A DNA stretch of 64,000 nucleotides from Methanocaldococcus sp. (lineage in GTDB: Archaea > AGJL01 > Methanococci > Methanococcales > Methanocaldococcaceae): NCBI RefSeq assembly GCF_024490875.1, contig NZ_JACCLX010000033.1, positions 1 through 64,000 on the forward strand, read 5' to 3'. The position numbers and the translations under genes are program-made. Below are positions 3,904-31,022 of this stretch, in pieces (within the stretch, counting starts at the first letter, position 1; each line of letters starts with the position of its first letter). Under the pieces are notes generated by a model that saw only the letters and a program-made list of their open reading frames with translations, ran no database searches and was not told the DNA's origin.

Positions 3904-4230
3904 TGGTGTGCATGGCTAGGCCGGGGGGTTGGGCGTCCCCTGTAACCCGAAATCGTCCTCATGCGGGGGCCGAAAACCTGGGGGCGGTATGCCTTCCAGT
4001 CCTCTCTCCACAGGTCTCTCGATGATGCCTCGTCCCGTGGGGCTCGGCGGTGGGGGAGCACCTTCTGTAAGGAAGGTGTAACCCCCTTTACCTGCCGAAC
4101 CCCGCCAGGCCCGGAAGGGAGCAACGGTAGGCAGGACGTCGGCGCTCACGGGGTAAACGGGGTTGAGAAGAGGCCTGTGGGTAGGAGGGGGCTGGAAGGC
4201 ATACCCACCCCAGGGAAGCCATGCACACCA
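3904..4230 (+). ncRNA. Signal recognition particle 7S RNA
   Basis: RNA scaffold of the archaeal signal recognition particle, which binds SRP19 and SRP54 and targets secreted and membrane proteins. The first 13 bases (3905-3917, GGTGTGCATGGCT) are the exact reverse complement of 4217-4229, giving the terminal helix. The helix 8 region carries the conserved GGAAGGGAGCAACGGTAGGC stretch near 4112-4131. Length (about 327 nt) and very high GC in an AT-rich genome both fit a thermophile's structural RNA. A T-run begins at 4234, a likely terminator. Open frames inside it are shadows. Confidence 0.96.
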
Positions 4231-4303
4231 CTATTTTTTATATATCTTAAATTTTATTTTCTGAATATTCTAATTAATAGAAACTTAAATATGAGGGAAA
4301 ATA

Positions 4304-4780
4304 ATGCTTATTGGTATAATCTCTGACACTCATATTTACGATAGAGCATATGAATTGCCAAAAACTGTTTTTGATGAATTTTCTAATGTTGATTTAATTA
4401 TACACTGTGGAGATGTTACAGATAAAGAAGTTTTAGATTTATTGAGTGATTTAGCAGAAGTTATTGCTGTTAGAGGAAATATGGATTATCTTAATCTTCC
4501 AAAACAACAAATTTTAAATATAAATAAGTTTAAAATAGGGGTTATTCATGGAGATGTTATTTATCCAAGAGGAGATAAACTAAAATTAAGATTATTAGGT
4601 AAGGAGATGGGGGTAGATATATTAATCTCAGGACATACACATACACCATTTATAGATGACTGTGGAGATATTTTATTACTAAATCCCGGCTCTCCAACAG
4701 TTCCAAGGTGTCCTATAAAGTCAATTATGAAATTAAATATTGATGATAATATTAAAGTTAAAATAATTCCAATTGAATAA
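4304..4780 (+). CDS. YfcE/MJ0936-type metallophosphoesterase
   Basis: Calcineurin-like phosphodiesterase of 158 residues with all metal-binding blocks in order: SDTH near residue 8, CGDVTD, RGNMD, HGD, and GHTHTP near 111. These ligate two divalent metals in the active site. Characterised relatives hydrolyse model phosphodiesters; the natural substrate is unknown. The start is chosen by a GAGGG site a few bases upstream. It is followed 18 bases later by a ferredoxin gene. It resembles MJ0623. Confidence 0.88.
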   Translation: MLIGIISDTHIYDRAYELPKTVFDEFSNVDLIIHCGDVTDKEVLDLLSDLAEVIAVRGNMDYLNLPKQQILNINKFKIGVIHGDVIYPRGDKLKLRLLGKEMGVDILISGHTHTPFIDDCGDILLLNPGSPTVPRCPIKSIMKLNIDDNIKVKIIPIE

Positions 4781-10549: not shown

Positions 10550-10590
10550 AACTATTTTTTATTTTTATTAGAAAAATAAAAAAGTAGTTT
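10549..10590. terminator. Bidirectional terminator hairpin between convergent genes
   Basis: The bases AAACTA-T6-A-T5 on the left and A5-T-A6-G-TAGTTT on the right are near-perfect inverted repeats around a short ATTAG loop. The structure lies exactly between the stops of leuS and the convergent wall-protein gene, so it gives T-tracts in both directions. Confidence 0.55.
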
Positions 10591-12127
10591 AATGGCTATT
10601 TACTGGTGCTAAGTTTCCTGCTAAGTTTCCAACATAATTACCAGCTAAGTTTCCTGCAATATTACCGTAGTTTCCAGCCAAGTTTCCATATACTACTTCA
10701 TTTAATTCTGAACTTTCTCCAAGGATTGCATGAATTATACCAATAAACAGTTGAGTAATACTATTCCATAGACCAATTAGCCATCCTTCTATATTTTCTC
10801 CGCTAAGTGTTGCATTTACTGGATATACAGTGTTGTTGTTAGCCATTTCTGTTACATTTACTACATTACTACCTATATTTACTGTTTCATTACCTACATT
10901 TTTTATAATCTCATTTGCTATTTCTGTTTTGTTTCCTGGATTGTAACTTACATTTGCTGTTATTATACCTTCACTTGTATTTAATGTTATTTTACTTCCA
11001 TTAATTGTTGCATTATATAATGTAATATTTACAATTGTTGTTATATTACTTTCATTTGTTGTGTTTAATGATGATGTATTTATTAATGTTACAGTTGTTG
11101 TCTGTGTAGTTGTTGTAGATGTTGGTGGTATGTAATAACCACCTCCAGAACTACCCCCAGACACACTATATGTCATTTCCGTTGCTGTTGATATAGATAC
11201 TTTTGCTTCTTCTGATTTTGCTATTTTAATAATAACATTGACTATTTTATTTATTAATGTTGGAGATTCTCCTAATACTATTATATTAACATTAATTGAA
11301 ATTACTTTACTTACAATATCAGAAACTATATTTTCATTTGTTGTTGTAATAGGTATTATAATTCCAACATATCCTTTTGTGAATTCAAGTATTGCATTTA
11401 TTATTGGATTTTTAGAGTTTTCAAATACTACAATTGCAACTGGTTTTTTTATAATGTCAGGATTTAATCTTTTGACTATACTAATTGATGATTTAATAAC
11501 ATTTTCTGAATTTTTGTCTACATCAACAAGTAATGTTTTACTCATTTTTGAAACGTCATTTACTATTACTTTTGGAACTGATGTTCCAATAATTACTGCG
11601 TCATCAATTTTTACATTTGCTGATTTTAATGCATCAACTACTTCTTTTTCTTTATTTGGAGCATAGTATAATACAGGTGCATCAAAACTTACAGCAACTG
11701 GATATATTTTTTCATTAAATCCTTCTGCAATTACTAGATTTTTCGCAACATTAGGATCTTCTTTAACCCATCTTTCAAACAGTTTTATTGAAGTTTCAAC
11801 TCTTGTTTCTCCCCAAACTCTTTCTGTTTTAATATTTAATTTTGATATTTCATTCTCTACTTTATTACTAACAGCAACAGGACCTCCGACAATTATTACT
11901 TTTTTAATATTATAGATTTCTAATTCTTTTTTAGCTTCATCTGACAACTCATCTGTTGGAGTATATATTAGTTTATAACCCATAGCCTTTGCATATGGTG
12001 CTGCAACAACAGCATCTGCTGGTGTTGATACTATTATAGCTACATTTTCATCTGATGTAGCAAATGTAAGAGGAATTACACTAAATACTATGAGCATCGA
12101 CATTAATATAGAAATTTTAGATTTCAA
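10589..12127 (-). CDS. Secreted CWB2-type cell-wall/S-layer protein with Asn-Leu-Ala-Gly repeat tail
   Basis: Exported surface protein of 512 residues: a Sec signal peptide (first ~23 residues), a region resembling cell-wall-binding repeat 2 (VIIVGGPVAVSNKVENEI, then VWGETRVETSIKLFERW), more alpha/beta repeats to about 300, a Gly/Ser and Thr-rich linker (GGSSGGGYYIPPTST), a sequon-rich beta segment, a hydrophobic helix near 460, and a tail built from NLAGN/NIAGN units. The start is TTG at 12127, chosen because GGAGGTGA lies six bases before it. It is divergent from the next gene. CWB2 domains anchor proteins to wall polymers in bacteria; the ligand here is unknown. Confidence 0.75.
   Translation of the reverse strand: MKSKISILMSMLIVFSVIPLTFATSDENVAIIVSTPADAVVAAPYAKAMGYKLIYTPTDELSDEAKKELEIYNIKKVIIVGGPVAVSNKVENEISKLNIKTERVWGETRVETSIKLFERWVKEDPNVAKNLVIAEGFNEKIYPVAVSFDAPVLYYAPNKEKEVVDALKSANVKIDDAVIIGTSVPKVIVNDVSKMSKTLLVDVDKNSENVIKSSISIVKRLNPDIIKKPVAIVVFENSKNPIINAILEFTKGYVGIIIPITTTNENIVSDIVSKVISINVNIIVLGESPTLINKIVNVIIKIAKSEEAKVSISTATEMTYSVSGGSSGGGYYIPPTSTTTTQTTTVTLINTSSLNTTNESNITTIVNITLYNATINGSKITLNTSEGIITANVSYNPGNKTEIANEIIKNVGNETVNIGSNVVNVTEMANNNTVYPVNATLSGENIEGWLIGLWNSITQLFIGIIHAILGESSELNEVVYGNLAGNYGNIAGNLAGNYVGNLAGNLAPVNSH
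10605..10690 (-). repeat. Tandem short repeats coding the NLAGN tail
   Basis: Variants of CTAAGTTTCC(TGC/AACA) recur about every 15-30 bases on the plus strand and encode NLAGN, NIAGN and NYVGN units at the C-terminus of the wall protein. The repeats are coding, imperfect and confined to this tail. Confidence 0.7.
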
Positions 12128-12247
12128 TTTCCTTCACCTCCTTATAAACGAAATATACAAATATATTTCATTATATTTTTAATTTTATTAAAATATAAAT
12201 ATCTTTCGGATATTTATTTTTAATCTAAATTAAAGAGGTGATTATTT

Positions 12248-12937
12248 ATGAAATTTATAAAAATTTTGAGAATATGTGTTTTATTTCTATTTGGTATACT
12301 TGGGGTATCAATTATAAATGATGTTGGAGGAGTTTATAAATATCTATTAATTTTAATTTTTATACCTTCAATATTACATATCTTATTATTAACTAATACT
12401 TTTAAAAAGTTGGAAAATTTTCTAAATTATTATTGCCTCTCTACATTTATATTGGTATTAATTTTACTTGCAATCAATAATATTCAATATTTTCAAAAGG
12501 CTATATTGTTATTTGCTCTTCCTATATTATTATTACTACCTTCAATTAGGAGATCTCCAAAATTATTTACAAAAATATTTATCTCTACAACATCACTGTG
12601 GATTACTATAATTTATTTTAGAAATATAGGAAATATTGCTGTATTACTTTCAATTTTATCATTTATTTTAGTATATTTGGCATTAAATTGGAATAAAATT
12701 AAAAAAGTTGTTAATGTATCAATATTAAAAGATTTAGAGCCATCAGGAATTTTTATTTTAGGAGCTATATTTTGTTTGTTAGTTTCAGCAATATGTTTAA
12801 TAAAGAATAACGAATATTTGGCAAATAAAATAGCAGAGTATGCATACTTTTTGTTAGTTGTTGGAGTATTAAGAGCACTTTATGAATATGTTAGAGACAT
12901 AAAAGAAAATGAGGATGATAAACATGAAATATATTAA
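12248..12937 (+). CDS. Polytopic membrane protein, 229 aa, unknown function
   Basis: About eight hydrophobic segments separated by short loops and almost no large soluble part; no motif I recognise. It starts at ATG 12248 with a GAGGTGAT site, and its 3' end overlaps the start of the STT3-like gene, so the two are likely translated together. This pairing suggests a role in surface glycosylation, for example an accessory to the transferase, but that rests on position only. Confidence 0.75.
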   Translation: MKFIKILRICVLFLFGILGVSIINDVGGVYKYLLILIFIPSILHILLLTNTFKKLENFLNYYCLSTFILVLILLAINNIQYFQKAILLFALPILLLLPSIRRSPKLFTKIFISTTSLWITIIYFRNIGNIAVLLSILSFILVYLALNWNKIKKVVNVSILKDLEPSGIFILGAIFCLLVSAICLIKNNEYLANKIAEYAYFLLVVGVLRALYEYVRDIKENEDDKHEIY

Positions 12938-14957
12938 TGGATTTAAAAACATCATTTCAAAAAATGTAAAAATTAAACTTTTACTTTTGTTTATTGTAAT
13001 TGTAGCATTTCTCCTTAGAATTCAAACAGCTAAATATGATTTATTATTACTTGCTGATCCCTGGTATCACTATGCAATGATTAAGTTTATTGTAAATAAT
13101 GGCTATTATATTCCATTTAATAATTTATCGAATCATCCCTTTTATGGAATATCTCCAAACCCTCCTGGCCTTTATTGGATTCCAGCAATTTTGTATTGGC
13201 TGGTTTCTAAAGTTTATTCTATAAAATTGTTAAGATTTGTTCAGATTATTCCCTCAATTATTGGTTCTTTAACAGTAATACCAATTTATTTAATTGGAAA
13301 AGAATTAAAAAATAAATATTTGGGAATAACTATGGCTTTTGTTTTTGCAGTATCTCCAATTATTGTTAAAAGTGGTCTTGCTGGATATTATAGAGGAGAG
13401 TTTTGGATGATATTCTTTGGAATGTTTTCAGTATATTATTTTTTAAGATATTTAAATTCGTTAAATTTAAAATATATATTTTATTCCTCGGTTTTTACAG
13501 TATTATGCTCCCTTGTATGGAATGGATGGGTCTATATTCCTGTAATAATTGGAATTATTCATTTTGTTTATGTTATTTATTACAAAAAAGATAGTTTTAT
13601 TAAAGGATTCATAATTTATATGATATTTTCGTCTATCTTTGTGGGTATTTGGAAAATTATATTTTTTTATCACTATCTAAACCATTTATTAGTATTTTTA
13701 ATATTACTTGGAATTTGTTTATTTGAGATAATATACTTAAAATATATAAAAATTAAAAATGTAAATGTTTATTTGGGGATTTTCCTATTGTTTTGGCTTA
13801 TTTTAATTGTAGGTTTAAGAATGTTGGATATAGATTTAGTTTCTAAGATAATTTCTTTAATACTTACTGGCAAGATCAGTAAAGGTCCAGGAATTATTGT
13901 AACAGAAAGTTATTTCAGTTATTGGGATTTGTTATTAGGTTTTAGTGTCTATATATTTTTGATTTTAGTATTTATCTTTAAATTTATCAAGGATCTAATA
14001 AAAAATTCAATAACATTTGAGTATTTATTAGCATTTGCATTATTAGTTTCTTCTATTATGTTATTTCTCAAAGGAATTAGGTTTATATTTGTAAGCTCTT
14101 TAGGGTATATAATTCCAATTGGATTGATTTTTTCAGAGTTTTTAGAAAATCTTATAAAAAGAATAATAAATTTTAAAAATTATTCTACATTATTCTTAAA
14201 ATTAAAAACTATATTTAGTATATTTATATTTTTGATATTGATATCTGTTCCTATAATTAGTTCAGAAAATCAAGTAAGTAAAATCACCCCATATATCTCA
14301 AAAGATTGGTATAAAGCAAGTTTGTGGATGAAAAATAAGGATGGAAAGACAATATTTACATTCTGGGATCAAGCAAATTGGTTTATCGCAATATCTGAAA
14401 AAACTGTTTTTACAGATACACAAACGAATTTTGGTAGTAATCCATATAAAGATGCTTATGTGTTCTGTGCTAACTATTCAACTGGCATTGAGAGATTAAA
14501 AAAGTTGAGAGCAAATTATGTTGCTGTTGATAAGAGGACTTTGTTGATGTGGTATTGGCTACAGTCATTTAATATGAATAAAAATGTCAAATTTAATGAA
14601 TCCTTTCTTTATCATCTCTATTACGAAAATGTCTCTTCTAAGGATTTAAAACTTGTATTTAAATCAGATGATTTAAAGATTTATAGGGTTATATATCATA
14701 AACCAGTTATATACAATGTTTTATGCAATAACTCTAAAATAACGATATATAGTTATTCTCCATATTTATCTAAAATTAACGCCACTTTAAAAATATGTAA
14801 GTTTAATACAACAAAAGTCGTATTTAAGAAAAATTTCTCCTTTAAATGTTACGGAGATTGTAAAAAATCAATAGATGTCAATTTAAGTAATGGAATCTAT
14901 GATGTTTATGTTTCCGATGGAGAGGTTATTATTAAAAAGGTTCTTGTAGTTAGATAA
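12924..14957 (+). CDS. STT3/AglB-like oligosaccharyltransferase with degenerate WWDYG motif
   Basis: GT-C membrane glycosyltransferase of 677 residues, resembling AglB/STT3, which moves lipid-linked glycans to Asn. The N-terminal acidic motif is LLADPWYHY near residue 43; about 12 membrane helices follow, including SGLAGYYRGEF (the second acidic loop). The C-terminal soluble domain has FTFWDQANWF near residue 480 in place of WWDYGxW, so the catalytic signature is altered. It is shorter than typical Methanocaldococcus AglB (over 900 residues), so a paralogue. Starts at ATG 12924 (GAGGATGAT site) rather than ATG 12909. Confidence 0.8.
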   Translation: MKYINGFKNIISKNVKIKLLLLFIVIVAFLLRIQTAKYDLLLLADPWYHYAMIKFIVNNGYYIPFNNLSNHPFYGISPNPPGLYWIPAILYWLVSKVYSIKLLRFVQIIPSIIGSLTVIPIYLIGKELKNKYLGITMAFVFAVSPIIVKSGLAGYYRGEFWMIFFGMFSVYYFLRYLNSLNLKYIFYSSVFTVLCSLVWNGWVYIPVIIGIIHFVYVIYYKKDSFIKGFIIYMIFSSIFVGIWKIIFFYHYLNHLLVFLILLGICLFEIIYLKYIKIKNVNVYLGIFLLFWLILIVGLRMLDIDLVSKIISLILTGKISKGPGIIVTESYFSYWDLLLGFSVYIFLILVFIFKFIKDLIKNSITFEYLLAFALLVSSIMLFLKGIRFIFVSSLGYIIPIGLIFSEFLENLIKRIINFKNYSTLFLKLKTIFSIFIFLILISVPIISSENQVSKITPYISKDWYKASLWMKNKDGKTIFTFWDQANWFIAISEKTVFTDTQTNFGSNPYKDAYVFCANYSTGIERLKKLRANYVAVDKRTLLMWYWLQSFNMNKNVKFNESFLYHLYYENVSSKDLKLVFKSDDLKIYRVIYHKPVIYNVLCNNSKITIYSYSPYLSKINATLKICKFNTTKVVFKKNFSFKCYGDCKKSIDVNLSNGIYDVYVSDGEVIIKKVLVVR

Positions 14958-15304: not shown

Positions 15305-15334
15305 AATTAAACTTAATTAAATATAATTAAGGTG
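15305..15334 (+). promoter_or_regulatory. Palindromic AT repeat before sat (possible operator)
   Basis: Contains TTAATT-6 bases-AATTAA, a perfect inverted repeat (15313-15330), overlapping the 19-base string shared with the RHH gene's leader and ending in the sat ribosome site AAGGTGG. Confidence 0.35.
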
Positions 15335-15340
15335 GATATA

Positions 15341-16489
15341 ATGGTTTCAAAGCCACATGGTGGTAGATTAGTTAGGAAATTATTATCTGAGAAAATTAAA
15401 GAGAGAATTTTAGAAGAAAAAGATGAATATCAAAAAATAAATATTAGAGAAGGAACTGCGATAGATATTGAAAATATTGCACATGGTATATACTCCCCAC
15501 TTGAAGGTTTTCTTGTAGAAAATAAATTTCAATCAGTTTTAGATGATATGAGATTACCTAATGACTTACCTTGGAGCATTCCAATAGTTTTAGATGTAAA
15601 GGAAAAGGATTTAAAATTTGATGTAGGAGATGAAATCCTTTTATATTATGAAAATATCCCAATAGCTGTTATGAATGTAGATGATATTTACAACTATGAC
15701 AAAAAAGAATTTGCTCAAAAAGTCTTTAAAACTACTGATATAAACCATCCTGGTGTAGCAAAAGTTTATAATATGAATGAATATCTTGTTGGAGGAGAGA
15801 TTAAACTTTTAAATGAATTGCCTAATCCTTTTGAAAAATACACTTTAAGACCAATAGAAACAAGAATTTTATTTAAAGAGAGAAAATTTGAAACTATAGT
15901 AGCATTTCAAACAAGAAATGTTCCTCATTTAGGGCATGAATATTTACAAAAATCTGCATTAACATTTGTTGATGGGTTATTTATAAATCCAGTTTTAGGA
16001 AAGAAAAAGAAAGGAGATTATAAAGATGAAGTTATTTTGAAAGCTTATGAAACATTATTTAAGCACTACTATCCAAAGGATTCAGCAGTTTTAGCAACTG
16101 TTAGATATGAGATGAGATATGCTGGGCCAAGAGAAGCTATTCATCACGCAATAATGAGAAAGAATTTTGGATGTACGCACTTTATTGTTGGAAGAGACCA
16201 TGCAGGGGTTGGAAACTATTATGGACCTTATGAAGCTCAAGAAATATTTAAAAACTTCCCTGATTTGGGAATAACGCCAATGTTCTTTAAGGAATTCTTC
16301 TATTGTAAAAAATGTAAAGGTATAGTAAATGAAAGAATTTGCCCTCATCCTATGGAAGATAGAGAATATTTTAGTGGAACAAAAATAAGAAATATGATTG
16401 CTAATGGGGATGTTCCTCCTGAATACTTCATGAGAAAAGAGGTTTATGAAACAATAATGAGTTTTGAAAATCCATTTGTGGAGGAGTAA
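15341..16489 (+). CDS. sat: Sulfate adenylyltransferase (ATP sulfurylase)
   Basis: Makes adenosine 5'-phosphosulfate (APS) and pyrophosphate from ATP and sulfate. The 382-residue protein has the family motifs QTRNVPHLGHEY near residue 190 (HxGH site), GRDHAGVGNYYGPYEAQ near 283, and the C-terminal block YFSGTKIRNMI. CKKC...CPHP near 322-337 looks like the zinc site of archaeal enzymes. Start ATG 15341 follows AAGGTGG; the upstream in-frame extension lacks a site. It begins a run with the DHH enzyme (1-base gap), an AP-superfamily enzyme, cysC and a permease. M. jannaschii, as I recall, lacks this gene. Confidence 0.95.
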   Translation: MVSKPHGGRLVRKLLSEKIKERILEEKDEYQKINIREGTAIDIENIAHGIYSPLEGFLVENKFQSVLDDMRLPNDLPWSIPIVLDVKEKDLKFDVGDEILLYYENIPIAVMNVDDIYNYDKKEFAQKVFKTTDINHPGVAKVYNMNEYLVGGEIKLLNELPNPFEKYTLRPIETRILFKERKFETIVAFQTRNVPHLGHEYLQKSALTFVDGLFINPVLGKKKKGDYKDEVILKAYETLFKHYYPKDSAVLATVRYEMRYAGPREAIHHAIMRKNFGCTHFIVGRDHAGVGNYYGPYEAQEIFKNFPDLGITPMFFKEFFYCKKCKGIVNERICPHPMEDREYFSGTKIRNMIANGDVPPEYFMRKEVYETIMSFENPFVEE

Positions 16490-16490
16490 T

Positions 16491-17423
16491 ATGCTGATAA
16501 TTCATCATTGGGACACTGATGGAATAACTTCAGCAGCTTTAACAGTTAAAGCCTTAAATTTGGAAGATTTTGTGAATGTCTCCCCTCCAATTGGAGAGTT
16601 TAGATTTGATAAGAGAATTGACAAGTATATTGAAAAATACAATAAAATATATGTCTTGGATTTAAATCTTCCACAAGAAGTAGAAAATATTACCAAGGAA
16701 ACAATATTTATTGATCATCATATACAAAAAAAGATTAAAAATCCTAATGTTAAACAGATAAATCCTGTTTTAGATGGAAAGGATTATCCCTCAGCATCTT
16801 TTGTAGTTTCTGAATATTTTTCCATTTGGAACTATTTATCTACACTAGGGGCTATAGGAGATATTGGGGAAAAAGCATTTAGTATTTCAAAAGTTAAAAA
16901 ACTTCTTGATATTGCTAATATAAATAAAAAAGAAGCATTAAAGTTGGTAAATTTAATCGATTCAAATTATATTGTAATGGAAAGAAACGAGGTTGAAAAT
17001 GCTGTGAAAGTTATTTTAAACTTAGAGCCAAAAGATCTTTTAGAGTATGAAAAATGGAACAAGAATCTTGAAAAAATCAATAATGCAATAGAAGAGGCAA
17101 TTTCAAATATGGAAATTAAAAATAGAATCGCATTTATTGAATTTAAAAGTAAATTCAACATTATTTCAAAAGTTGCAAGGAAAGTTGTTTGGAGAATGGG
17201 ATATGATGGAGCAGTAGTAGTAAATGAAGATTTTAATGGAAAGGCACAGATATATTTCAGAATTTCATCTAATTTAATAAATAAAATCAATATGACTGAA
17301 CTTATTCAAACATTAAAAAACAAAAATTACAATGTAGGAGGAAAAAAGGATGTTTTAGGATGTATTTGCGAAAAAGATGATATTAATGAAGTTTTAAAAA
17401 TTATAAATTCATATTTAAGGTGA
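16491..17423 (+). CDS. DHH-family phosphoesterase, candidate PAP phosphatase
   Basis: DHH/DHHA1 phosphoesterase of 310 residues. Motifs: HHWDTDGITSAA (Asp motif I, residues ~4-15), VLDLN, FIDHH (DHH motif), STLGAIGDIGE, then a C-terminal DHHA1 domain ending in GYDGAVVV and a GGKKDVLG version of the GGH motif. Relatives include NrnA-type nano-RNase/pAp phosphatases and RecJ-like exonucleases. Its place between sat and cysC argues for removing 3'-phosphoadenosine 5'-phosphate (PAP), the by-product of PAPS use; a DHH-type PAP phosphatase works with Sat and APS kinase in Methanothermococcus sulfate assimilation. Start ATG 16491 follows GGAGGAG. Confidence 0.85.
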   Translation: MLIIHHWDTDGITSAALTVKALNLEDFVNVSPPIGEFRFDKRIDKYIEKYNKIYVLDLNLPQEVENITKETIFIDHHIQKKIKNPNVKQINPVLDGKDYPSASFVVSEYFSIWNYLSTLGAIGDIGEKAFSISKVKKLLDIANINKKEALKLVNLIDSNYIVMERNEVENAVKVILNLEPKDLLEYEKWNKNLEKINNAIEEAISNMEIKNRIAFIEFKSKFNIISKVARKVVWRMGYDGAVVVNEDFNGKAQIYFRISSNLINKINMTELIQTLKNKNYNVGGKKDVLGCICEKDDINEVLKIINSYLR

Positions 17424-17427
17424 TATA

Positions 17428-18819
17428 ATGGAAAATGTTAAAAAAGTATTCGTTATTGGTTTGGATTCTGCACCTCCAGAACTTTTATTTGATAAGTTAT
17501 TAGATAAATTGCCAAACATAAAAAAACTTTTGGAAAAATCAATCTATGGGCCTATGAAAAGTTGTATCCCAGCAATTACAATCCCTGCCTGGATGGTAAT
17601 GGCTACTGGTAAAACTCCTGGGGAATTAGGACTTTATGGATTTAGACATAGAAAGAAAGGAACTTATAATGATATCTGGATTGCTCACAGTTTGATGGTT
17701 AAAGAAAAGGCAGTGTGGGATTATTTAGGAGAAGTTGGTAAAAAATCAATATTAGTTGGAGTTCCTCCAAGTTATCCTCCAAAGCCTATTAAAGGGCATT
17801 TAGTCTCTTGCTTTATAACCCCTGATGCATCAGTTGATTACACATATCCAAAATCTCTTAAAAGTGAGATAGAAAACCTCGTTGGAGAGTATATATTTGA
17901 TGTAGTTTTTAGAAAAGATAATAGAGATGAAGTAAAGGAATTACTTTGGGAGATGACAGAAAAAAGATTTGAAGTTATTAGATATTTAATTCAAGAAAAA
18001 GAATGGGACTATTTCCAATTTGTTGAAATTGGTTTGGATAGAGTTCATCATGCATTTTGGAAATATTTTGATGAAAATCATCATTTATATCCTGGAGATA
18101 ATAACCCATACAAAAATGTTATTCCAGATTATTACAAACTCCTTGATAAAGAGATTGGAAAAACTTTAAAACTTTTAGATTTGGATGAAACTGCTATTAT
18201 TATTGTATCCGACCATGGTATAAAGGCGATGAAAGGGGCATTTGTAATAAACCAATGGTTGATTGAGGAAGGTTTACTAAAAATTAAAAATCCAGAGATT
18301 TTAAAATCTGGAAAACAGTTGAGATTTGAGAATTTGGATATTGATTGGAATAAAACAATAGCATGGGCTTGGGGGGGTTATTACGCAAGAATCTTTCTCA
18401 ATGTTGAGGGAAGAGAACCAAATGGCATAATAAAAATGGAAGACTATCATAAAGTCAGAGAGGAAGTAGCAGAACTTATTAAGAGTATTAGGGGACCAAA
18501 TGGAGAAAAATGGGATACTAAAGTTTTTTATCCAGAAGATATTTATCCAATGACAAAAGGAGATAAACCAGATATGATGGTGTATTTAGATAATTTAAGT
18601 TGGAGATCTGCTGGAACATTAGGTTATGAAAGTCCATATCTTTTAGAGAATGATACAGGGCCTGATGATGCGGTTCATTCTGAGTATGGAGTATTTTCTA
18701 TTTATTTACCTGGAATGGATGAAAGTAAGCAAATTACCTCAACTATTTATGACTTTGCTCCTACAGTTTTAAAGATCTTTGGGATAGAAAAAAATCTAAG
18801 GGGGAGAAGTATACTATGA
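17428..18819 (+). CDS. Alkaline-phosphatase-superfamily enzyme (type I phosphodiesterase/nucleotide pyrophosphatase), copy 1
   Basis: 463-residue metal-dependent hydrolase or transferase. Seen: first metal Asp in VIGLDSAP (D13), likely nucleophile T51 in PAITIPAWMVMATGKTP, LDRVHHAFW, SDHGIKAMKG, and a last His in HSEYGVF. No signal peptide, so cytoplasmic. It overlaps cysC by ATGA and follows the DHH gene by 4 bases. A second copy lies at 27554-28966 inside the glycan cluster. Family members cut phosphodiesters, phosphomonoesters or sulfate esters; handling an activated sulfate or sugar compound is inference. Confidence 0.85.
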   Translation: MENVKKVFVIGLDSAPPELLFDKLLDKLPNIKKLLEKSIYGPMKSCIPAITIPAWMVMATGKTPGELGLYGFRHRKKGTYNDIWIAHSLMVKEKAVWDYLGEVGKKSILVGVPPSYPPKPIKGHLVSCFITPDASVDYTYPKSLKSEIENLVGEYIFDVVFRKDNRDEVKELLWEMTEKRFEVIRYLIQEKEWDYFQFVEIGLDRVHHAFWKYFDENHHLYPGDNNPYKNVIPDYYKLLDKEIGKTLKLLDLDETAIIIVSDHGIKAMKGAFVINQWLIEEGLLKIKNPEILKSGKQLRFENLDIDWNKTIAWAWGGYYARIFLNVEGREPNGIIKMEDYHKVREEVAELIKSIRGPNGEKWDTKVFYPEDIYPMTKGDKPDMMVYLDNLSWRSAGTLGYESPYLLENDTGPDDAVHSEYGVFSIYLPGMDESKQITSTIYDFAPTVLKIFGIEKNLRGRSIL

Positions 18820-19352
18820 AGGAAAAATCTGATGTAGGATTTACAATCTGGCTTACAGGTCCGAGTGGGGCGGGAAAAACCACATTAGCAAAGGCATTAA
18901 AGGAAAAACTCAAAGAAATGGGTCATAGAGTTGAGATTTTAGACGGAGATGAAATAAGAAATTCCTTATATCCAAATTTAGGGTTTAGTAAAGAGGCAAG
19001 AGAGATGCACAATAAAGTAGTTATTTACATGGCTAAATTGTTATCAAGAAATGGAGTAATTTCTATAGTCTCTTTAATTTCTCCTTACAAATCTGTTAGG
19101 GAATATGCAAGAAAAGAAATTGGGAGATTTATGGAAGTTTATGTATATGCTCCTTTAAATGTAAGAATTAAGAGAGATCCAAAGGGACTTTATGCTAAGG
19201 CATTGAAAGGAGAAATAAAAGGATTAACTGGCTATGATGGAGTTTATGAAGAGCCAGATAATCCAGAAGTTAAAGTTGATAGTTCCAAAATGAGTGTTGA
19301 TGAGGAAGTTGAAATAGTTATTAAAAAGGCTAAGGAATTAAACTATCTTTAA
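18816..19352 (+). CDS. cysC: Adenylylsulfate (APS) kinase
   Basis: Phosphorylates APS at the 3' position to give PAPS. The P-loop is GPSGAGKT at residues 15-22, followed by LDGDEIRNSLYPNLGFSKEAR, SLISPYKSVREYAR, VYVYAPLNVRIKRDPKGLYAKAL and LTGYDGVYEEPDNPEVKVD, all standard APS kinase blocks over 178 residues. The ATG overlaps the stop of the AP-superfamily gene (ATGA), so translation is coupled. With sat it forms the full route to PAPS. No PAPS reductase or recognisable sulfotransferase is in the window. Confidence 0.96.
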   Translation: MKEKSDVGFTIWLTGPSGAGKTTLAKALKEKLKEMGHRVEILDGDEIRNSLYPNLGFSKEAREMHNKVVIYMAKLLSRNGVISIVSLISPYKSVREYARKEIGRFMEVYVYAPLNVRIKRDPKGLYAKALKGEIKGLTGYDGVYEEPDNPEVKVDSSKMSVDEEVEIVIKKAKELNYL

Positions 19353-19371
19353 AATTTAAAAAGTGAGTTTT

Positions 19372-20121
19372 ATGTCATTATACTTTATATTTATTGGATT
19401 TGTTGTAGGATATCTTGTTGGTTTAACTGGAATTGGTGGGGGCATTTTAATGACCCCTTTATTAATATTTTTGGGAGTAGAACCAATAATAGCGGTTGGG
19501 ACTGATTTACTGTATGCTGCTATAACTAAGATTGTGGGAACTATTTTACATAATAAAAGAAGAAATATAAATTATAATATAGCAATAAAATTATTTTTAG
19601 GAAGTTTACCAGCCATAATAATTGGTTCTATAATTTTGAGATTGGTTAATAGATGTGAAATCAATTATTTTTTAACAATAATATTAGGTGTGATTTTAAT
19701 TATAACTTCTATTATAAATTTGAAAGGACGTTTTGTGAAAAAAATAGGTTTTAATTCTTCTATTTTGGTATTTATTGGATTTATAGTAGGCTTGATAGTA
19801 CAATTTACATCAGTTGGTAGCGGAGTTTTAATAACTCTTGCATTAACGAATTTCACAAAACTTTCTCCAAGATCAGTTGTAGGAACAAGTATTTTCTATG
19901 GTGTATTATTAACTTCGTTAAGTGCTTTGAGCCATATAAGTTTAGGAAATGTTGACTACAAATTAGCTTTATCACTAATTCTTGGAACCATTCCTGGAGT
20001 TTATGTTGGAACTCATATGAATTCTTATATTTCACAAGATAAACTTAGAAAATTTATAAATTTTTTAATATTATTTATGGGAATTTATATTTTAGGGGTT
20101 AATTTGTTAAAATATTTTTAA
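19372..20121 (+). CDS. TauE/SafE-family membrane permease
   Basis: 249-residue protein with about eight hydrophobic segments and the two family half-repeats: VGYLVGLTGIGGGILMTPLLI near the start and IVGLIVQFTSVGSGVLITLAL in the middle. TauE/SafE proteins move sulfite, sulfoacetate or other small sulfur and organic anions; placed last in a sat-cysC run, sulfate or sulfite transport is a fair inference. ATG 19372 is used; GTGAG at 19363 is its weak ribosome site. Its end overlaps the convergent flippase gene by 23 bases. Confidence 0.88.
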   Translation: MSLYFIFIGFVVGYLVGLTGIGGGILMTPLLIFLGVEPIIAVGTDLLYAAITKIVGTILHNKRRNINYNIAIKLFLGSLPAIIIGSIILRLVNRCEINYFLTIILGVILIITSIINLKGRFVKKIGFNSSILVFIGFIVGLIVQFTSVGSGVLITLALTNFTKLSPRSVVGTSIFYGVLLTSLSALSHISLGNVDYKLALSLILGTIPGVYVGTHMNSYISQDKLRKFINFLILFMGIYILGVNLLKYF

Positions 20122-21331
20122 TACTTTTTAAAAATGGGATTTGAACAATTATAGATAATATTGAGGTTATTAAAACGATATCTATTATTTGACTTATATT
20201 TTGATTAAAAAATGTGATTCCTACAATTTCGAATATTAATGTAATTGATAATAAATAAGATACTCTTGTAATTCCTAATGAGAGAAGATAGTTCATAATC
20301 AATCCTGATATTGCAAAGAAGAACATAGCCAATGCATATTTCGCTAAGTATGGAATTGCCTTTAAATATTTTGTTCCAAAGATAGTTTTTATAGTTAATT
20401 CAGGGAAGAATTTGAATAACAACAATATTGGTAACGTTAGGATAATTGTTAATATTAATGCCTTTATAAATAGATTGAAATGATTCAATCCTTTTTCTTT
20501 TAATTCTGATGCTTTTGGGAATAGAACTACTGCAATCCCCCCTGGAGCAAAAAGAATCATTTTTCCTAATACAGATACTGATGAATAAATTCCTGCTAAA
20601 AAATCTGTTAGGTAGTGTTTTGCTAAGATGGTATCTATTGAATAACTTGTTGTGTAAGTTAGTAAAGATAATAGAGTTAAAGTTGAGTATTTATAAAGAT
20701 CTGGAATTTTAAATGGTTCTGGTTTTATTTTTATTAAATCTTTAAGGAAGTAAAATGAGATTATAAAAACAACTATATTTGCAATTAAAAATGGTGCCAA
20801 TGCCCCGCTAACGCTAAATCCTAAATAAACCAATAAAATACCTAATATGAACTTCAAAAATGACCATAGTGTTTGAGTTAGCCCTAATGGAATAAATCTT
20901 TGAAGTCCTCTTAATATGCCTTGATTTGTTGGTAGTGCATAAGCAAATAATATAGATGAAAATAATATTAATGCTGGTAATTGAGATGGTAGATGTAAAT
21001 AGTTTGATAAAAGAGGAGTTATTATAAAAAATAAAATAGTTGTTATTACCCCAAATATAAAGGATTTTTTTAATGCATATCTCCAAAAGTAAGAGAGTTT
21101 ATTAAATTGATTTTTTGCCTTTAATTTGGATGTGTATTTTGTCATTGTAGTTTGGACTGTTGCTGATATAACACTAAAAATATAAAAAATATTTATTAAA
21201 GAAAATAAAATCCCATATTCCTCAGGAGTTAATAATCTCCCCATAAAAAGTTGATAGAGATAGTTAAAAAATGCTCCAGATAAAGTGAAAAATATCATTA
21301 TTATACTATGTTTTGCTAACTTTTGATCCAT
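20099..21331 (-). CDS. Wzx/AglR-type oligosaccharide flippase
   Basis: 410-residue polytopic protein of the MATE-like polysaccharide exporter group. Features: start HSIIMIFFTLSGAFFNYLYQLFMGRLLTPEEYGILFSL, the classic N-terminal block of O-antigen flippases (broken here into pieces for reading), then about 12 hydrophobic segments; LRGLQRFIPLGL and FSVSGALAPFLIANIV are typical. It would turn lipid-linked glycans to the outer face for transfer by an STT3 protein. ATG 21331 has an AAGGAGAT site. It converges on the permease gene and overlaps its last 23 bases. Confidence 0.88.
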   Translation of the reverse strand: MDQKLAKHSIIMIFFTLSGAFFNYLYQLFMGRLLTPEEYGILFSLINIFYIFSVISATVQTTMTKYTSKLKAKNQFNKLSYFWRYALKKSFIFGVITTILFFIITPLLSNYLHLPSQLPALILFSSILFAYALPTNQGILRGLQRFIPLGLTQTLWSFLKFILGILLVYLGFSVSGALAPFLIANIVVFIISFYFLKDLIKIKPEPFKIPDLYKYSTLTLLSLLTYTTSYSIDTILAKHYLTDFLAGIYSSVSVLGKMILFAPGGIAVVLFPKASELKEKGLNHFNLFIKALILTIILTLPILLLFKFFPELTIKTIFGTKYLKAIPYLAKYALAMFFFAISGLIMNYLLSLGITRVSYLLSITLIFEIVGITFFNQNISQIIDIVLITSILSIIVQIPFLKSIKNILTN

Positions 21332-22390: not shown

Positions 22391-22858
22391 TTATTTTCTA
22401 ATTTTTATTTTTGATATTATATTATTTAGTTTTTTATTTAAATTGATTGCCCATTTATCTCCTTTTTCTCTTCTCCAATCGTAGATTAAGTAGAAGATAC
22501 AGCAAATAAATGTTATTCCAGAGATTGCTAAACCAATATCAAACCAATCCTGTGGTTTGTATCTGATAATTATTTTTAGATTTCCTGTTTCATTTATGTA
22601 GAAGCCGTTTATTACTCCATATAATGGAACTGGGGAAACTTTCTCTACCAATTTTCCATCTTTATATACTCTTGCCTCCCATAGTGGATCATAACTTTCA
22701 GCAAATGACAGCATGAAAGGTTTTGTTGCATTTACTTGAACTTCCCATAAGGTTGGATTGATTTTTTTGTATGAAATTATCTTTGCTGGTTTTTCTTTAA
22801 CTTTAAAGAGTTGTTCTATAGTTTCGTTGTTTTTGGTTGAATATAGCCAGATGACATC
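22391..22858 (-). pseudogene. C-terminal remnant of a GT-C-like membrane protein
   Basis: An open minus-strand frame of 155 codons starts right after a TGA at 22859-22861 and reads DVIWLYSTKNNETIEQLF, then ...FMLSFAESYDPLWEARVYKDG..., ending with a membrane helix (IGLAISGITFICCIFYLIY) and a basic tail. Its layout, beta-sandwich then RYKPQDWFDIG then one helix, mirrors the C-terminus of the intact 942-residue neighbour (FYPQDTWNIIY then helix). The N-terminal part is missing, and the internal ATG at 22714 lacks a good site. It is most simply the tail of a truncated homologue. Confidence 0.65.
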
Positions 22859-22965: not shown

Positions 22966-25794
22966 TTAACGTTTTTTCCACATCTTCATATCTCTGACTA
23001 GTACGAAGCAGTTTATAAATATAATAGCAAGCACAATAATACCATTCGTTAAATATATGATATTCCATGTATCTTGAGGATAAAATTTTATTTCTATGTG
23101 ATGAAGCCCTGTAGTGTTTGTTTTTATCCAGAAATTATTTACAAATAATTGTGGTATAGGCTTGATAGTTTTTTTTCCATCTACGATAGCTACCCAACCT
23201 CCGTGATATTGTTCAGGAATAGTTATACAAAAACTAACATTTTGTATATGAGTTAATACATCCACAAAGTATTTGCCATTTTTATATTCTAACTTTGATA
23301 CTGTAATAGTTCTTGGAGTGTTATTAAGTTTTTTATTTTCAAAATTTGAAGTATTATTGAACACTTCATCAAAGGATGAGTTTTTAACTAAATTAAATGA
23401 AATTATTTTCTTATGTTTTAAAAGTTCATCAACCTCGTTATAGAGGGTCACAAATTCCTCTTCTGGTATAATAACAACGATATTTATAGCATTTAATCCA
23501 TTGACATTTTTAATCGTCAGAATATGAAATCCTTCAGAGAGTGTTACATTGCCAATAAACCATCTGAATGCATTCTCTTTTCCCTTAGTGGTTATATAGA
23601 ATGTCTTGTTATCTATGGAGACATCTATTTTTCCACCTTTGTCATTTTCAAAATACCTTACTAATAATATATAATTTCCTTCTTTTTTGATGTTTACTGG
23701 GATTTTTAAGAAATCTCCAGGATTTTTAGATCCTACAAATCCCCAACTAAATTTAAAGCTGTGTTCAAAACTTGCATTTGGGAAATTCCAACTGTAGAAT
23801 ATTTCCCATTCTGCATGGTGTGGATTATCTATATAATAAGGATGCCATTTTCCTTTTTCAATGCCTTCCGTAAAGTGTGCCGGTACTATTATGTATTTTT
23901 CTTTTTTATTCGCAATGAGCAAATTTACAAGAAGGTTGAATTTGAGGTTGTCTATAGAGGGAGTAACTATAATCGGTGCTGAGTAGATTACATCTTTTGG
24001 AATGGGTAAGTCAGTAAAGAAGACTGCATAATTGCTATTCAGATTTGAAGATTCTATAAATTGCGATAAAGACTTAAGACCACCATCTATAATAACCGGT
24101 ATAGTGCCTATGTGAATACTCTTAGTGGCCATTAGGTTTTCATATACATATATATGCTTTGTGTGTACTCTGAGTTTAAAGTAAGGGGAACTATCAAGGT
24201 TCTCTTTTATTCGCTTAGCTATCCCTTGTAAGCGATCCCACCAGTAGTCATCGTGAATAACTAAATATTTAACCCCAATATAGGAAAGTATGTAAGCGGC
24301 AGATTTTGTTTTATTGTTCTCTAAGATGTGTAATAGGAATGGGTAGAGATACTCCATTGGTTTTCTATAATAAAAGTATGTGCGAATTTTAAATGATGAT
24401 TCTGGAATTGCCCATCCCTTGGTCTTAAACCATACTGGATTTTCACCTGGGGGATATCTCCCAGTTCTTGGAATCCATAGAGATCTGAAAGAACCTTCAT
24501 TATCTTTTAGCCAGTTTGCTATTTGGGAGTATTCTTGGGGAATTAGTGTAACTTTTTTTTCGTGATTATTAATATATGCAGTCTCATATATCGATCCAAG
24601 CAACAGGAAGAATAATAGAGTTACTACTAGAGACTTTGTTAGTCTGTTTCTATTTATTTGGAATATGCCATACAGGGATATTCCCAGTAGAGATAAAAGT
24701 AATATGATTGCTATGCTCACAAACAATCTTGGAGTTCTAAAAATAACCCCCACATCAATCCATCCAAAAGATAACGTCGTAAGAAGATACTGAATACTTT
24801 TAAGAGGAGAATATTTGAATGTTATTAGAGATAAAAATACGAGAGCAAAAGTCGAGATAATAACGAATTTATTTTTCTTGTATAATAAAAGCGACAAAAA
24901 AGCAATAATTAGAATTGAGAATCCAAAAATTTCTAAATAAGTATTATCTGGGAATGTTATTCCAAATGAATAGAGGTAATTATATGGGCCCACAATAACT
25001 GGTAGGGGTATTCCTCTAGTATTTGAAAGAGAATATAGGTATATACTAAACATATTGGGTATTAATCGTAATATAAAAAAGAAAATAAAAAATACTGTTA
25101 TTAGTAGAATTTTCTCCTTTAGATTTGTTAATAGACTTCTTAGAGATAAAAATCCTAAAGAGTATATGAAAATTAAGGATAAACCAGCTAATATTATTCT
25201 AATATCAAAAAGTGCTGCTAAAAATAAAGCCAAAAGTGAAGTATATGCCACTTTTACAAAAATAGGGCAATCATCATTATTAATACATTCTAAGATTTTT
25301 AATGTTAAAAATGGTACAATAGGAAGCACTGAGAGAAAACCCATTGTCCAAATATCTGTATTTTTTGATAGTAACATTAATTCATAAATTGCACCTACAA
25401 AGATTGAAGATAAATAAATGGAAGTATACCCTTCTTTTTTAGTAATTTTTATTAACATCTTCTTTATTAACAAGAACATGCAAACTGCTCCAATTATCGG
25501 TAATAATACCTCATAGAAAACCCATGCGATTTTTGGATTAAAAAGATACATCACAGATATTAAATTAGACGGTGGTGTTGGTGTTATTAGTATACTTATA
25601 TATTCATCCCATAAAAGCCATGGGACATACGATACTGGCTTCTGGATTGGCATCGAACCATACACATATATTTGCCCTTTGCTAACATTTGTCAATAACC
25701 AAAGATTAGAAGTTATTGAAATGATGAAATATAATACTAAAACGACTATTCCTCTTACAACTTTAGAATTTGTTATTTTTCTCCAACTAACCAT
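22966..25794 (-). CDS. Large polytopic membrane protein with extracellular carbohydrate-binding-like C-terminus (GT-C-like)
   Basis: 942 residues: about 11-13 membrane helices in the first ~440, then a large exported part, and one last helix before a basic tail (RDMKMWKKR). The exported part contains a CBM6-like beta-sandwich (KNPGDFLKIPVNIKKEGNYI, then GKIDVSIDNKTFYI and EGFHILTIKNV). The plan resembles YfhO/arabinosyltransferase-type GT-C proteins that add sugars outside the cell using lipid-linked donors. A clear DxD was not located. Its start overlaps the methyltransferase gene by 22 bases. It is last in the glycan run. Confidence 0.7.
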   Translation of the reverse strand: MVSWRKITNSKVVRGIVVLVLYFIISITSNLWLLTNVSKGQIYVYGSMPIQKPVSYVPWLLWDEYISILITPTPPSNLISVMYLFNPKIAWVFYEVLLPIIGAVCMFLLIKKMLIKITKKEGYTSIYLSSIFVGAIYELMLLSKNTDIWTMGFLSVLPIVPFLTLKILECINNDDCPIFVKVAYTSLLALFLAALFDIRIILAGLSLIFIYSLGFLSLRSLLTNLKEKILLITVFFIFFFILRLIPNMFSIYLYSLSNTRGIPLPVIVGPYNYLYSFGITFPDNTYLEIFGFSILIIAFLSLLLYKKNKFVIISTFALVFLSLITFKYSPLKSIQYLLTTLSFGWIDVGVIFRTPRLFVSIAIILLLSLLGISLYGIFQINRNRLTKSLVVTLLFFLLLGSIYETAYINNHEKKVTLIPQEYSQIANWLKDNEGSFRSLWIPRTGRYPPGENPVWFKTKGWAIPESSFKIRTYFYYRKPMEYLYPFLLHILENNKTKSAAYILSYIGVKYLVIHDDYWWDRLQGIAKRIKENLDSSPYFKLRVHTKHIYVYENLMATKSIHIGTIPVIIDGGLKSLSQFIESSNLNSNYAVFFTDLPIPKDVIYSAPIIVTPSIDNLKFNLLVNLLIANKKEKYIIVPAHFTEGIEKGKWHPYYIDNPHHAEWEIFYSWNFPNASFEHSFKFSWGFVGSKNPGDFLKIPVNIKKEGNYILLVRYFENDKGGKIDVSIDNKTFYITTKGKENAFRWFIGNVTLSEGFHILTIKNVNGLNAINIVVIIPEEEFVTLYNEVDELLKHKKIISFNLVKNSSFDEVFNNTSNFENKKLNNTPRTITVSKLEYKNGKYFVDVLTHIQNVSFCITIPEQYHGGWVAIVDGKKTIKPIPQLFVNNFWIKTNTTGLHHIEIKFYPQDTWNIIYLTNGIIVLAIIFINCFVLVRDMKMWKKR

Positions 25795-26441
25795 ATTTGC
25801 CCACCTAAGCCAGTTTTATTCACTATCTTTTGTAACGGCTTTAGTAATGGATGAAATGGTGTTTCCAGTTTCACTACTTTAAATCCTACCCTCTCGACGA
25901 GAAATCGCAATGAGCTTGGTGTAAATAGATAAAGATGTGTCTTATCCCTAAAACCGTGCCAAGTCTTTTCTTTTCTTAAAACTTTTTTCAAAAATCTATC
26001 TATTGCGTTTAGATTAGGAGTTGTAATAATTATTTTGCCACTAACCTTTAAAACTCTATAAATTTCCTTTAAAACAAAATAAGGAGAATGTAGATGCTCT
26101 ATAACATCAAACATTGTTACCAAATCAAAACTATCGTCTTCAAACATTGGCAATCCTTTGTCTACATCGTGAACAAATAATTTTGCATTGGTCTCCTTTT
26201 TTGCTTGGTTAATAGCATATTCTGAGATATCAATACCATAGGTTTCACATCCAATCTCATCACAACATTTAAGGAAATACCCATAAGCACAACCAATGTC
26301 TAATACTCTAGCTCCCCTAACGTTTACATTTTTAAGAACTTCAGAAAAGTAAATCCCTCTTATTACTTTTTCCCAGTTTTTATATGATCTGTAATTACTT
26401 TGTTTACCTCCTTCAAAATATTCTTTACTAAATGGTTTCAT
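25773..26441 (-). CDS. Class I SAM-dependent methyltransferase
   Basis: 222-residue cytoplasmic enzyme. Motif I is VLDIGCAYGYFLKCC, followed by TYGIDISEYAINQA, then DLVTMFDVIEHLHSPYFVLKEIYRVLKVSGKI (motifs II/III region, shown in pieces by position ~100-135). It starts with ATG overlapping the preceding GT4 gene by 4 bases and overlaps the next gene by 22. In such a cluster it most likely methylates a sugar or lipid carrier; surface glycans of methanococci do contain methylated sugars, but the target is inference. Confidence 0.87.
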   Translation of the reverse strand: MKPFSKEYFEGGKQSNYRSYKNWEKVIRGIYFSEVLKNVNVRGARVLDIGCAYGYFLKCCDEIGCETYGIDISEYAINQAKKETNAKLFVHDVDKGLPMFEDDSFDLVTMFDVIEHLHSPYFVLKEIYRVLKVSGKIIITTPNLNAIDRFLKKVLRKEKTWHGFRDKTHLYLFTPSSLRFLVERVGFKVVKLETPFHPLLKPLQKIVNKTGLGGQIWLVGEK

Positions 26442-27553
26442 TTTACTACCTCCTTACATAATTCTTCTATTCTCTCTTTCATTTCAATCAAGTCTCTAAC
26501 AACAATAACATTCTTGTAATGTTCAAAGCCTCTCGCTCCTATTTCAGTTGAAATTATAGGTTTACCATATTTCAAATAGTCGAACATTTTTACCTCTATC
26601 CCTGTATCTGATGTTATTTTTGGGTTAACAAAGATATCAGCAACAGCTAAATAAGGCTCAATACTTTCTACATATCCAGTAATAATTACATTTGGTGGTA
26701 AATTATTTTTATGCTTAAATTTCTCACCTACAGAACCAACAATAAGGAAAATCACATGTGGTAAAGATTTAGCAATCTCTATAAGATGTTCAACAGCAAG
26801 TACATTTACACTATAATCAGCTCCTAAAAAGCAAACCACAGGCTTACCTTTTATTATATTTCTGATTTTTCTTGGAAGTTGAGAAAAATCCTTATACTTA
26901 GTTATTTGCGGTATGTTAAATTTCCATACCAATATTTTGTTAGATGGAACACCATCATGAATAAGTCTTTGTTTATCTTTTTCATTAAAACAGAGTACCA
27001 GATCAGCATTTTTAGCCGTGGAGAGTTCTATAAACTTAAGAAGAGAAATAAATGGTTTTGATATTTTGCTGTTTAGTTTTTCTAAGTAAAAATAATAGTC
27101 AACATTATGTTCAGAAAGAACAAACATAGAATTCAATTTCTTAGAAATTAAAAAAACTGGGAAAGCTCCAAAAGATCCATTATAGATTACTATATCTGGA
27201 TTAATTCTTTTTAATTTTTGACTAAGTCTTAGATATAATAGAACATCAAACCTTGCTAAAAAATCACCTATTAAAGATATTAATAAAGAAAGGAACCATT
27301 GTATTTTTTCCATTTTTAGAAATTTCCTCCTGCTATATTTCTTTTTTTGTATTCTTAAAAAATACAAGGAAATTGAAGGCACATCATGCAACGAGAGAAC
27401 AGAACACTTAGATCCATTTTCTTCTAATTCTTCTCTAAGCTTTCTCACTAATCTACTACCACCAAATGTAGGATGTTCTATTTCGTCAGGGGGAGAACGA
27501 GTAACTATGATTACATGTTTTCCTCCCCAAATCACCTTTTCAGGATGTTGCAA
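26438..27553 (-). CDS. GT4-family glycosyltransferase
   Basis: GT-B fold enzyme of about 371 residues. N-terminal domain with FGGSRLVRKLREELEENGSKC; the C-terminal donor site has VVCFLGADYSVNV, VIITGYVESIEPYLAVADIFVNPKIT and TGIEVKMFDYLKYGKPIISTEIGARGF (spans of the usual EX7E region). TTG at 27553 is taken as the start because GAGGTGAT lies four bases upstream; no in-frame ATG with a site is present nearby. It adjoins the AP-superfamily gene without a gap and is coupled to the methyltransferase gene. Confidence 0.83.
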   Translation of the reverse strand: MQHPEKVIWGGKHVIIVTRSPPDEIEHPTFGGSRLVRKLREELEENGSKCSVLSLHDVPSISLYFLRIQKKKYSRRKFLKMEKIQWFLSLLISLIGDFLARFDVLLYLRLSQKLKRINPDIVIYNGSFGAFPVFLISKKLNSMFVLSEHNVDYYFYLEKLNSKISKPFISLLKFIELSTAKNADLVLCFNEKDKQRLIHDGVPSNKILVWKFNIPQITKYKDFSQLPRKIRNIIKGKPVVCFLGADYSVNVLAVEHLIEIAKSLPHVIFLIVGSVGEKFKHKNNLPPNVIITGYVESIEPYLAVADIFVNPKITSDTGIEVKMFDYLKYGKPIISTEIGARGFEHYKNVIVVRDLIEMKERIEELCKEVVK

Positions 27554-28966: not shown

Positions 28967-29883
28967 TTCATTCCCTCCACAACTCCTTTTAAATAAACTT
29001 TTGCTATTTTTAACCTCTCCCTGAAGGGCTTTTTAGATTCAAACAGTATAACTTTTAAATAATATCCAGTTACAAGCCAATTATACACTAAAATAAAAAT
29101 TAAACACTGCCACCATTTTGAGTATTTTTTATGGAAAATAATTCTATTTCTTCCCATATAATATGCTCTCTTTTCGTCATATATGTGGAATTGCCTATCT
29201 TTATCCATTTCTTCTGGAAGGGACATGTCATGATAAATAATGGCATTTTTAACTACTAAACATTTATATCCTTTTTGTCTTACTCTCATTCCAAAATCAG
29301 CTTCATCATACTGAATTGCAAATGTTTTTTCGTCAAATATTCCAACTTTTTCTACCACCTCTCGTTTTACCATAAAAGCATTAGGAAAGTCATCTGTTTC
29401 CCAAACATCCTCATTTGGTAAAGGTAGATCCCTACCAATAAAATAAGTCCTACTTGTTAACATGTTTCTTTTTGTTCCTGCCCACCAGATTCTTTTTTTA
29501 TCTTTCCAATAATACATTATAGGACCAACCATTCCTATTTTATTATCTGAAATTATAACTTTTACTAAATTTTCAATACATTTAGTGTCCAATACATTAT
29601 CATCATCAACTAAAAAAATCAATTCACCTTTTGATAAGTTTATACCTTTATTTCTACTACCTGCAAGCAGTAAATTTTTATCATTTCTTACAATTTTTAA
29701 ATTAGTTAAATCATCAAAATTTTTTTTGATATATTCATAAGTTCCATCAGTTGAAGCATCATCTACTACGATTATTTCAATATTTTTATAAGTATTTTCT
29801 AAAATTGAATTTATTAACCGTTCAACCTGTTTTTTTCTATTATGTGTTGGAATTACTACTGAAACTAAAGGATTTTTATCCAT
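28948..29883 (-). CDS. GT2-family glycosyltransferase
   Basis: 311 residues, GT-A fold: VSVVIPTHNRKKQVERLI at the N-terminus, EIIVVDDASTDGTYEYI, then the nucleotide-sugar site FLVDDDNVLD near residue 93 and NAFMVKREVVEKVGIFDE, DEADFGMRVRQKGY (acceptor/catalytic block). A hydrophobic stretch near the C-terminus (WWQCLIFILVYNWLVTGYYLK) suggests membrane contact. Probably adds one sugar to the lipid-linked glycan on the cytoplasmic face. It overlaps both neighbours in the run (8 and 19 bases). Confidence 0.9.
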   Translation of the reverse strand: MDKNPLVSVVIPTHNRKKQVERLINSILENTYKNIEIIVVDDASTDGTYEYIKKNFDDLTNLKIVRNDKNLLLAGSRNKGINLSKGELIFLVDDDNVLDTKCIENLVKVIISDNKIGMVGPIMYYWKDKKRIWWAGTKRNMLTSRTYFIGRDLPLPNEDVWETDDFPNAFMVKREVVEKVGIFDEKTFAIQYDEADFGMRVRQKGYKCLVVKNAIIYHDMSLPEEMDKDRQFHIYDEKRAYYMGRNRIIFHKKYSKWWQCLIFILVYNWLVTGYYLKVILFESKKPFRERLKIAKVYLKGVVEGMKWTNSY

Positions 29884-30991: not shown

Positions 30992-31022
30992 TCTACCACA
31001 AATATATGCCTTTTTTGTAAAT

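Follow-up and report, generated by a model that had tools for sequence, protein, structure and literature searches.

In the window, which is the whole 64,000-nucleotide stretch of a contig of Methanocaldococcus sp., a heat-loving methanogen, that was analysed, a gene coding for an STT3-like oligosaccharyltransferase (OST) lies in a compact module with a small membrane-protein gene and with a divergently oriented gene coding for a CWB2-domain protein. The components of this module are the following:

10589..12127, minus strand: secreted CWB2-domain protein of 512 aa, the proposed substrate, divergent from the operon (PF04122, 45.5 bits)
10592..10687, minus strand: C-terminal Gly-Asn repeat tail of this protein, GNLAGNYGNIAGNLAGNYVGNLAGNLAPVNSH, with 7 Asn residues in GN, 0 of them in a sequon
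12128..12247, no strand: intergenic region that separates the divergent CWB2 gene from the membrane-protein/STT3-like pair, by ORF coordinates
12248..12937, plus strand: small multi-helix membrane protein of 229 aa, an ORF that overlaps the start of the STT3-like gene
12909..14957, plus strand: STT3-like OST of 682 aa (PF02516, 72 bits; PDB profile search, E 6e-48)

Sequence comparisons place the product of 12909-14957 in the STT3/AglB/PglB family and not in another GT-C family. Pfam assigns it to STT3 (PF02516; 72.1 bits, cut-off 24.5) and to no other family, and a PDB search with a profile built from five sequences gave significant matches exclusively to OST catalytic subunits (STT3/AglB/PglB chains), with E-values of 6e-48 for STT3A, 2e-28 for Archaeoglobus fulgidus AglB and 5e-12 for bacterial PglB. 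No better match to other GT-C families (PMT, ArnT, YfhO-like) was found in Pfam or in the PDB profile search, in agreement with the STT3 assignment made in the first-pass annotation. The frame given there, 12924-14957, is real, but the open frame begins at 12909, and the ATG at 12924 is the second in-frame one and a second start candidate (M6). An AlphaFold2 model of the protein made from a two-sequence alignment has a pLDDT of 35, too low for the 13-TM GT-C fold, the C-terminal domain or the active site to be read from it. The same genome (G000) indeed encodes a second, canonical AglB at another location (G000:C6, 935 aa, CWWDNG). An ordinary strong STT3 match is present in 35 of the 36 Methanococcales genomes, the exception being a 54%-complete genome, and among these 36 the window-type second STT3 gene was found only in G000, G005 and G016. 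The trio of CWB2 protein, membrane protein and STT3-like protein is kept in both G005 and G016.

The Asn-X-Ser/Thr rule is, to our knowledge, nearly universal among OSTs, and its structural basis, the WWD plus DK/MI pocket, is well described. The corresponding motifs of the STT3-like protein are these:

13050..13073, plus strand: first acidic (DXD) motif LADPWYHY with D50, matched to the first DXD motif in an alignment with 23 other STT3s
13380..13400, plus strand: second DXD motif AGYYRGE, with D replaced by R162 and E164 kept (alignment; R is common to Pyrococcus-type AglB)
13896..13907, plus strand: TIXE-equivalent I-V-T-E, with E333 kept and the first T replaced by I (alignment)
14361..14381, plus strand: WWDYG-equivalent FWDQANW, F485-W491 (alignments of orthologues and of archaeal STT3s)
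14529..14549, plus strand: DKRTLLM, residues 541-547, with M547 at the DK/MI signature column (103-STT3 alignment)

The first acidic motif is present, as noted at first reading, and the Glu of the TIXE/SVSE motif aligns with E333. The FWDQANW sequence, previously located near residue 480, lies exactly at F485-W486-D487-Q488-A489-N490-W491. The earlier statement that the protein lacks WWDYG holds for the first Trp and the Gly, but not for the second Trp and the Asp, so that the site, as aligned, is degenerate and not absent; the separate DK/MI residue has changed as well. Column counts were made over 103 archaeal STT3s: the W486 column is Trp in all 103, position 485 is W in 89 and position 489 is G in 100, F at the former and A at the latter being confined to the window clade. 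In the M547 column, 60 sequences have Lys and 26 have Ile, together 86 of 103, in line with the two published types of Ser/Thr pocket, one with Lys and one with Ile (PMC3703281, PMC8342417). As both the WWDYG-site residues (W to F and G to A) and the DK/MI residue (K/I to Met) are altered, the alignments indicate that the two published elements of the Ser/Thr pocket are both changed, which suggests a relaxed or altered +2 preference. FWDQA is fixed in all three orthologues including the window protein, the other two being 94% and 80% identical to it, and none of the close homologues has an intact WWDYG, the sister sequence described below having PWDQG. The canonical AglB signatures from which the STT3-like protein departs are the second DXD Asp, WWDYG and the DK/MI residue. 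The change of D to R in the second DXD motif, the Met at the DK/MI column and the divergent CWB2 gene with its Gly-Asn tail are features additional to the first-pass annotation.

That annotation had proposed that the protein may use another acceptor or be inactive. A changed acceptor preference is reasonable, since the pocket is altered, the gene is conserved and a separate AglB is present, whereas inactivity is not supported, given the intact frame, the retention of D50 and E333 and dN/dS values of 0.17 (window/G005) and 0.18 (window/G016). The canonical AglB gives 0.14 and 0.21 for comparison, and the STT3-like protein seems to be maintained by purifying selection in the same way, which argues against decay. 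A catalytically dead remnant or a regulatory pseudo-enzyme could be imagined from the change of all three signatures (canonical WWDYG, second DXD and DK/MI), but the above values, the retained catalytic acids and the identity of the motif in an orthologue at 80% overall identity make this most improbable. Loss of the second DXD Asp was rejected as a mark of inactivity because Arg is common to the Pyrococcus AglB lineage; Arg or Lys occupies this position in 12 of 100 archaeal STT3s outside the window clade, Pyrococcus type included, and in vitro activity of P. furiosus AglB-L has been mentioned (PMC3703281). We also consider it very unlikely that the glycan is transferred to a non-Asn acceptor, such as a hydroxyl amino acid, a lipid or another glycan: neither the second DXD motif nor the +2 pocket follows the A. 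fulgidus AglB (AfAglB) pattern, but E333 and D50, which correspond to residues for which handling of the Asn amide has been proposed (PMC8342417), are kept, and the R162 variant is found in Pyrococcus-type AglB.

To place the STT3-like protein among its relatives, a tree of STT3s was made from transmembrane columns only, with the WWDYG and DK/MI region left out. The window clade is sister to an STT3 from a distant archaeon, G057:C27 (bootstrap/SH-aLRT 99/94), and both group with Pyrococcus-type AglB (100/97). The STT3-like proteins of G000 and G016 are about 79-80% identical, whereas their canonical AglBs are just 57% identical, and this difference (79% versus 57%) points to horizontal transfer. 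From these data, the gene looks to have been horizontally acquired and to belong to the Pyrococcus-type AglB lineage, and not to be the within-lineage copy of methanococcal AglB that the word paralogue had implied. Pyrococcus-type AglB-L (PDB 2zag, 3vu1, 3wov), of which one representative (L165) matches PDB 3wov letter for letter in its C-terminal part, falls in the same supported clade as the window protein and shares with it the Arg in the second DXD motif, but has WWDYG and Lys at the DK column where the window protein has FWDQA and Met. Archaeoglobus fulgidus AglB (3waj, 5gmy, 7e9s) belongs to the same family by profile (E 2e-28), and its first DXD Asp and TIXE Glu are also present in the window protein, whereas its metal ligands D161/H163 (PMC8342417) correspond to R162/E164 and its WWD and DK pocket residues differ too. 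The canonical Methanococcales AglB (G000:C6, L001), although an STT3 family member from the same genome, is just 22% identical to the window protein over about 200 aa, has WWDNG and Ile at the DK/MI column, and is placed elsewhere in the tree. The G057:C27 protein (L032) also has an altered first Trp (PWDQG) and neither Lys nor Ile at the DK column, but it is only 493 aa long and is devoid of the C-terminal extension of the window protein. Both STT3 matches in G057, L030:3567-5270 (minus strand) and L032:12995-14476 (plus strand), are without the standard WWD, having WWWYG and PWDQG, respectively, and this genome, 92% complete, yielded no canonical AglB. A departure from WWD at the same site is seen in the E/D-W-S-Y-G paralogues (L090, L091, L116, L117, L027), which fall in a different clade and drop the Asp that the window protein keeps. 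In the STT3 paralogues L023, L024, L027, L116 and L117 (G037, G059, G079), some of them in tandem, E/D-W-S-Y-G or E-W-N-Y-G replaces WWDYG; they represent another lineage off this motif, with the Asp lost.

The CWB2 gene lies beside the STT3-like gene in G000, G005 and G016, and also, in another arrangement, in G057, where the STT3-like gene adjoins a gene for a CWB2 protein with GN repeats, as in the window, and a gene for a six-helix membrane protein. The tail of the CWB2 protein is made of Gly-Asn-hydrophobic-small repeats. A DNA pattern for the GN repeat was searched in 394 archaeal genomes and matched in five of them, in coding frame in four (G000, G005, G016 and G057), and all four in-frame matches are the CWB2 gene beside a pocket-altered STT3. 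The match in G102 lies outside any listed ORF and was taken as chance, and a second pattern search centred on G057 (393 genomes, mostly the same ones) returned no further carrier. The window and G057 tails align with a score of 80, compared with 33 +/- 6.4 for shuffled sequences, and 0 of 2000 shuffles reach this value. The N-terminal part of the window CWB2 protein is 42-58% identical to other methanococcal CWB2 proteins, whose ends differ, and the G057 CWB2 protein scores higher with two CWB2 proteins of its own genome than with that of the window. By these comparisons, the element common to the two modules is the tail and not the CWB2 domain, and this is the main reason to link the tail with the enzyme.

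It is conceivable, if rather unlikely, that the GN tail has a structural or adhesive role as a beta-repeat and that the adjacency stems from cassette transfer, with the STT3-like enzyme acting elsewhere. Gly-Asn-hydrophobic repeats would be plausible as self-associating or beta-roll sequences, and the cassette moved horizontally as a block, as seen from the 79% and 57% identities of the two enzymes between G000 and G016. However, the adjacency persists across STT3s of the window and G057 lineages that are less than 30% identical, and across CWB2 N-terminal parts that seem to share no recent ancestor, suggesting selection on the pairing. This pairing is represented by two independent lineages only, with one transferred cassette within Methanococcales, and convergence or a structural role of the GN repeat is possible.

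A stronger contender, although still below even probability, is an active second OST that modifies ordinary N-X-S/T sequons of the CWB2 neighbour and of other surface proteins, perhaps with a different lipid-linked glycan or a weaker Thr/Ser discrimination. Two residues of the published Ser/Thr pocket, W486 and D487, are kept, and the window CWB2 protein has 14 ordinary sequons between residues 350 and 438, upstream of the tail, that could be the actual glycosylation sites. The G005 copy has an equal number, but the G016 orthologue has only 5. An island near the module (22966-31754) contains, by sequence inspection, several glycosyltransferase-like genes, making a second glycan conceivable, and paralogues differing in glycan and site preference have been reported in other organisms (PMC3703281). 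Use of ordinary sequons nevertheless leaves unexplained both the change of the two pocket elements and the GN-tailed neighbours of the two pocket-altered sister enzymes.

The explanation that we favour, and to which we give about an even chance, is an active, horizontally acquired second OST with a membrane-protein partner, dedicated to its CWB2 neighbour and with a remodelled +2 pocket. Like AglB, the enzyme would act on the outer side of the membrane, moving a lipid-linked glycan onto protein, the small membrane protein from the overlapping gene would work alongside it as a helper, and its dedicated target would be the CWB2 surface protein encoded next door. The replacements W to F, G to A and K/I to M in the +2 pocket would relax or alter the requirement for a Ser/Thr two residues past the acceptor Asn, and the acceptor region might be the sequon-free tail of Gly-Asn-hydrophobic-small repeats. 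Use of the GN repeats as acceptor sites is speculative, and we regard as unlikely the full proposal that an OST with a rebuilt Ser/Thr pocket N-glycosylates non-sequon GN-repeat Asn residues on a dedicated neighbouring surface protein. At this locus, a natural OST-family enzyme with its catalytic acids intact and under purifying selection has both pocket elements altered and is encoded next to a sequon-free candidate substrate region, and the extent to which OST specificity can be rewritten is directly testable with the STT3-like/CWB2 pair. The STT3-like module would also be a further example, in methanogens, of a second glycosylation module that is mobile.

Besides the window's genome, G005 and G016 alone gave full-length orthologues of the partner membrane protein, in the corresponding position of the module. 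Searches of Pfam and NCBIfam gave no match for it. Its low-confidence model (pLDDT 63) has eight long helices, and a fold comparison with the PDB yielded nothing significant (best E 0.2), consistent with the eight-helix protein of no known family described at first for 12248-12937 on the plus strand. No homology with the membrane partner of G057 was detected by profile. Small membrane proteins weakly similar to the window partner in its C-terminal half (L186, L187, L188, L189 and L191) lie near GT-C, flippase-like or sugar-activation/other sugar genes in other archaea, and the window partner may therefore be one of a wider group of small membrane proteins associated with GT-C enzymes.

Further along the contig, one gene appears loosely associated with the module:

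20099..21331, minus strand: flippase-like membrane protein, named from reading of the sequence

This gene directly adjoins the STT3-like gene in G016, where it is 88-89% identical. A role as dedicated flippase of the module was rejected, as copies of 83-85% identity are present in four genomes that do not have the STT3-like gene. A sulfate-activation set occupies the region 15332-20121 of this methanogen, where genes code for an ATP-sulfurylase, a DHH-domain protein, a type I phosphodiesterase, an APS kinase and a TauE-type permease; of 36 Methanococcales genomes, 8 have ATP-sulfurylase. Membership of these genes in the module is unsupported, the G016 ATP-sulfurylase lying on another contig than the module and the flippase-like gene. 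In G016, a gene for a membrane protein of 1239 aa (L029:1-3720) is intact, and a 107-aa frame at 22391-22714 (minus strand) of the window, with 87% identity to a segment of this protein, is apparently what is left of such a larger gene. Finally, an archaeal SRP RNA (RF01857, 253.6 bits) lies at 3909-4225 on the plus strand and accounts for the spurious, G+C-rich ORF at 3961-4326.
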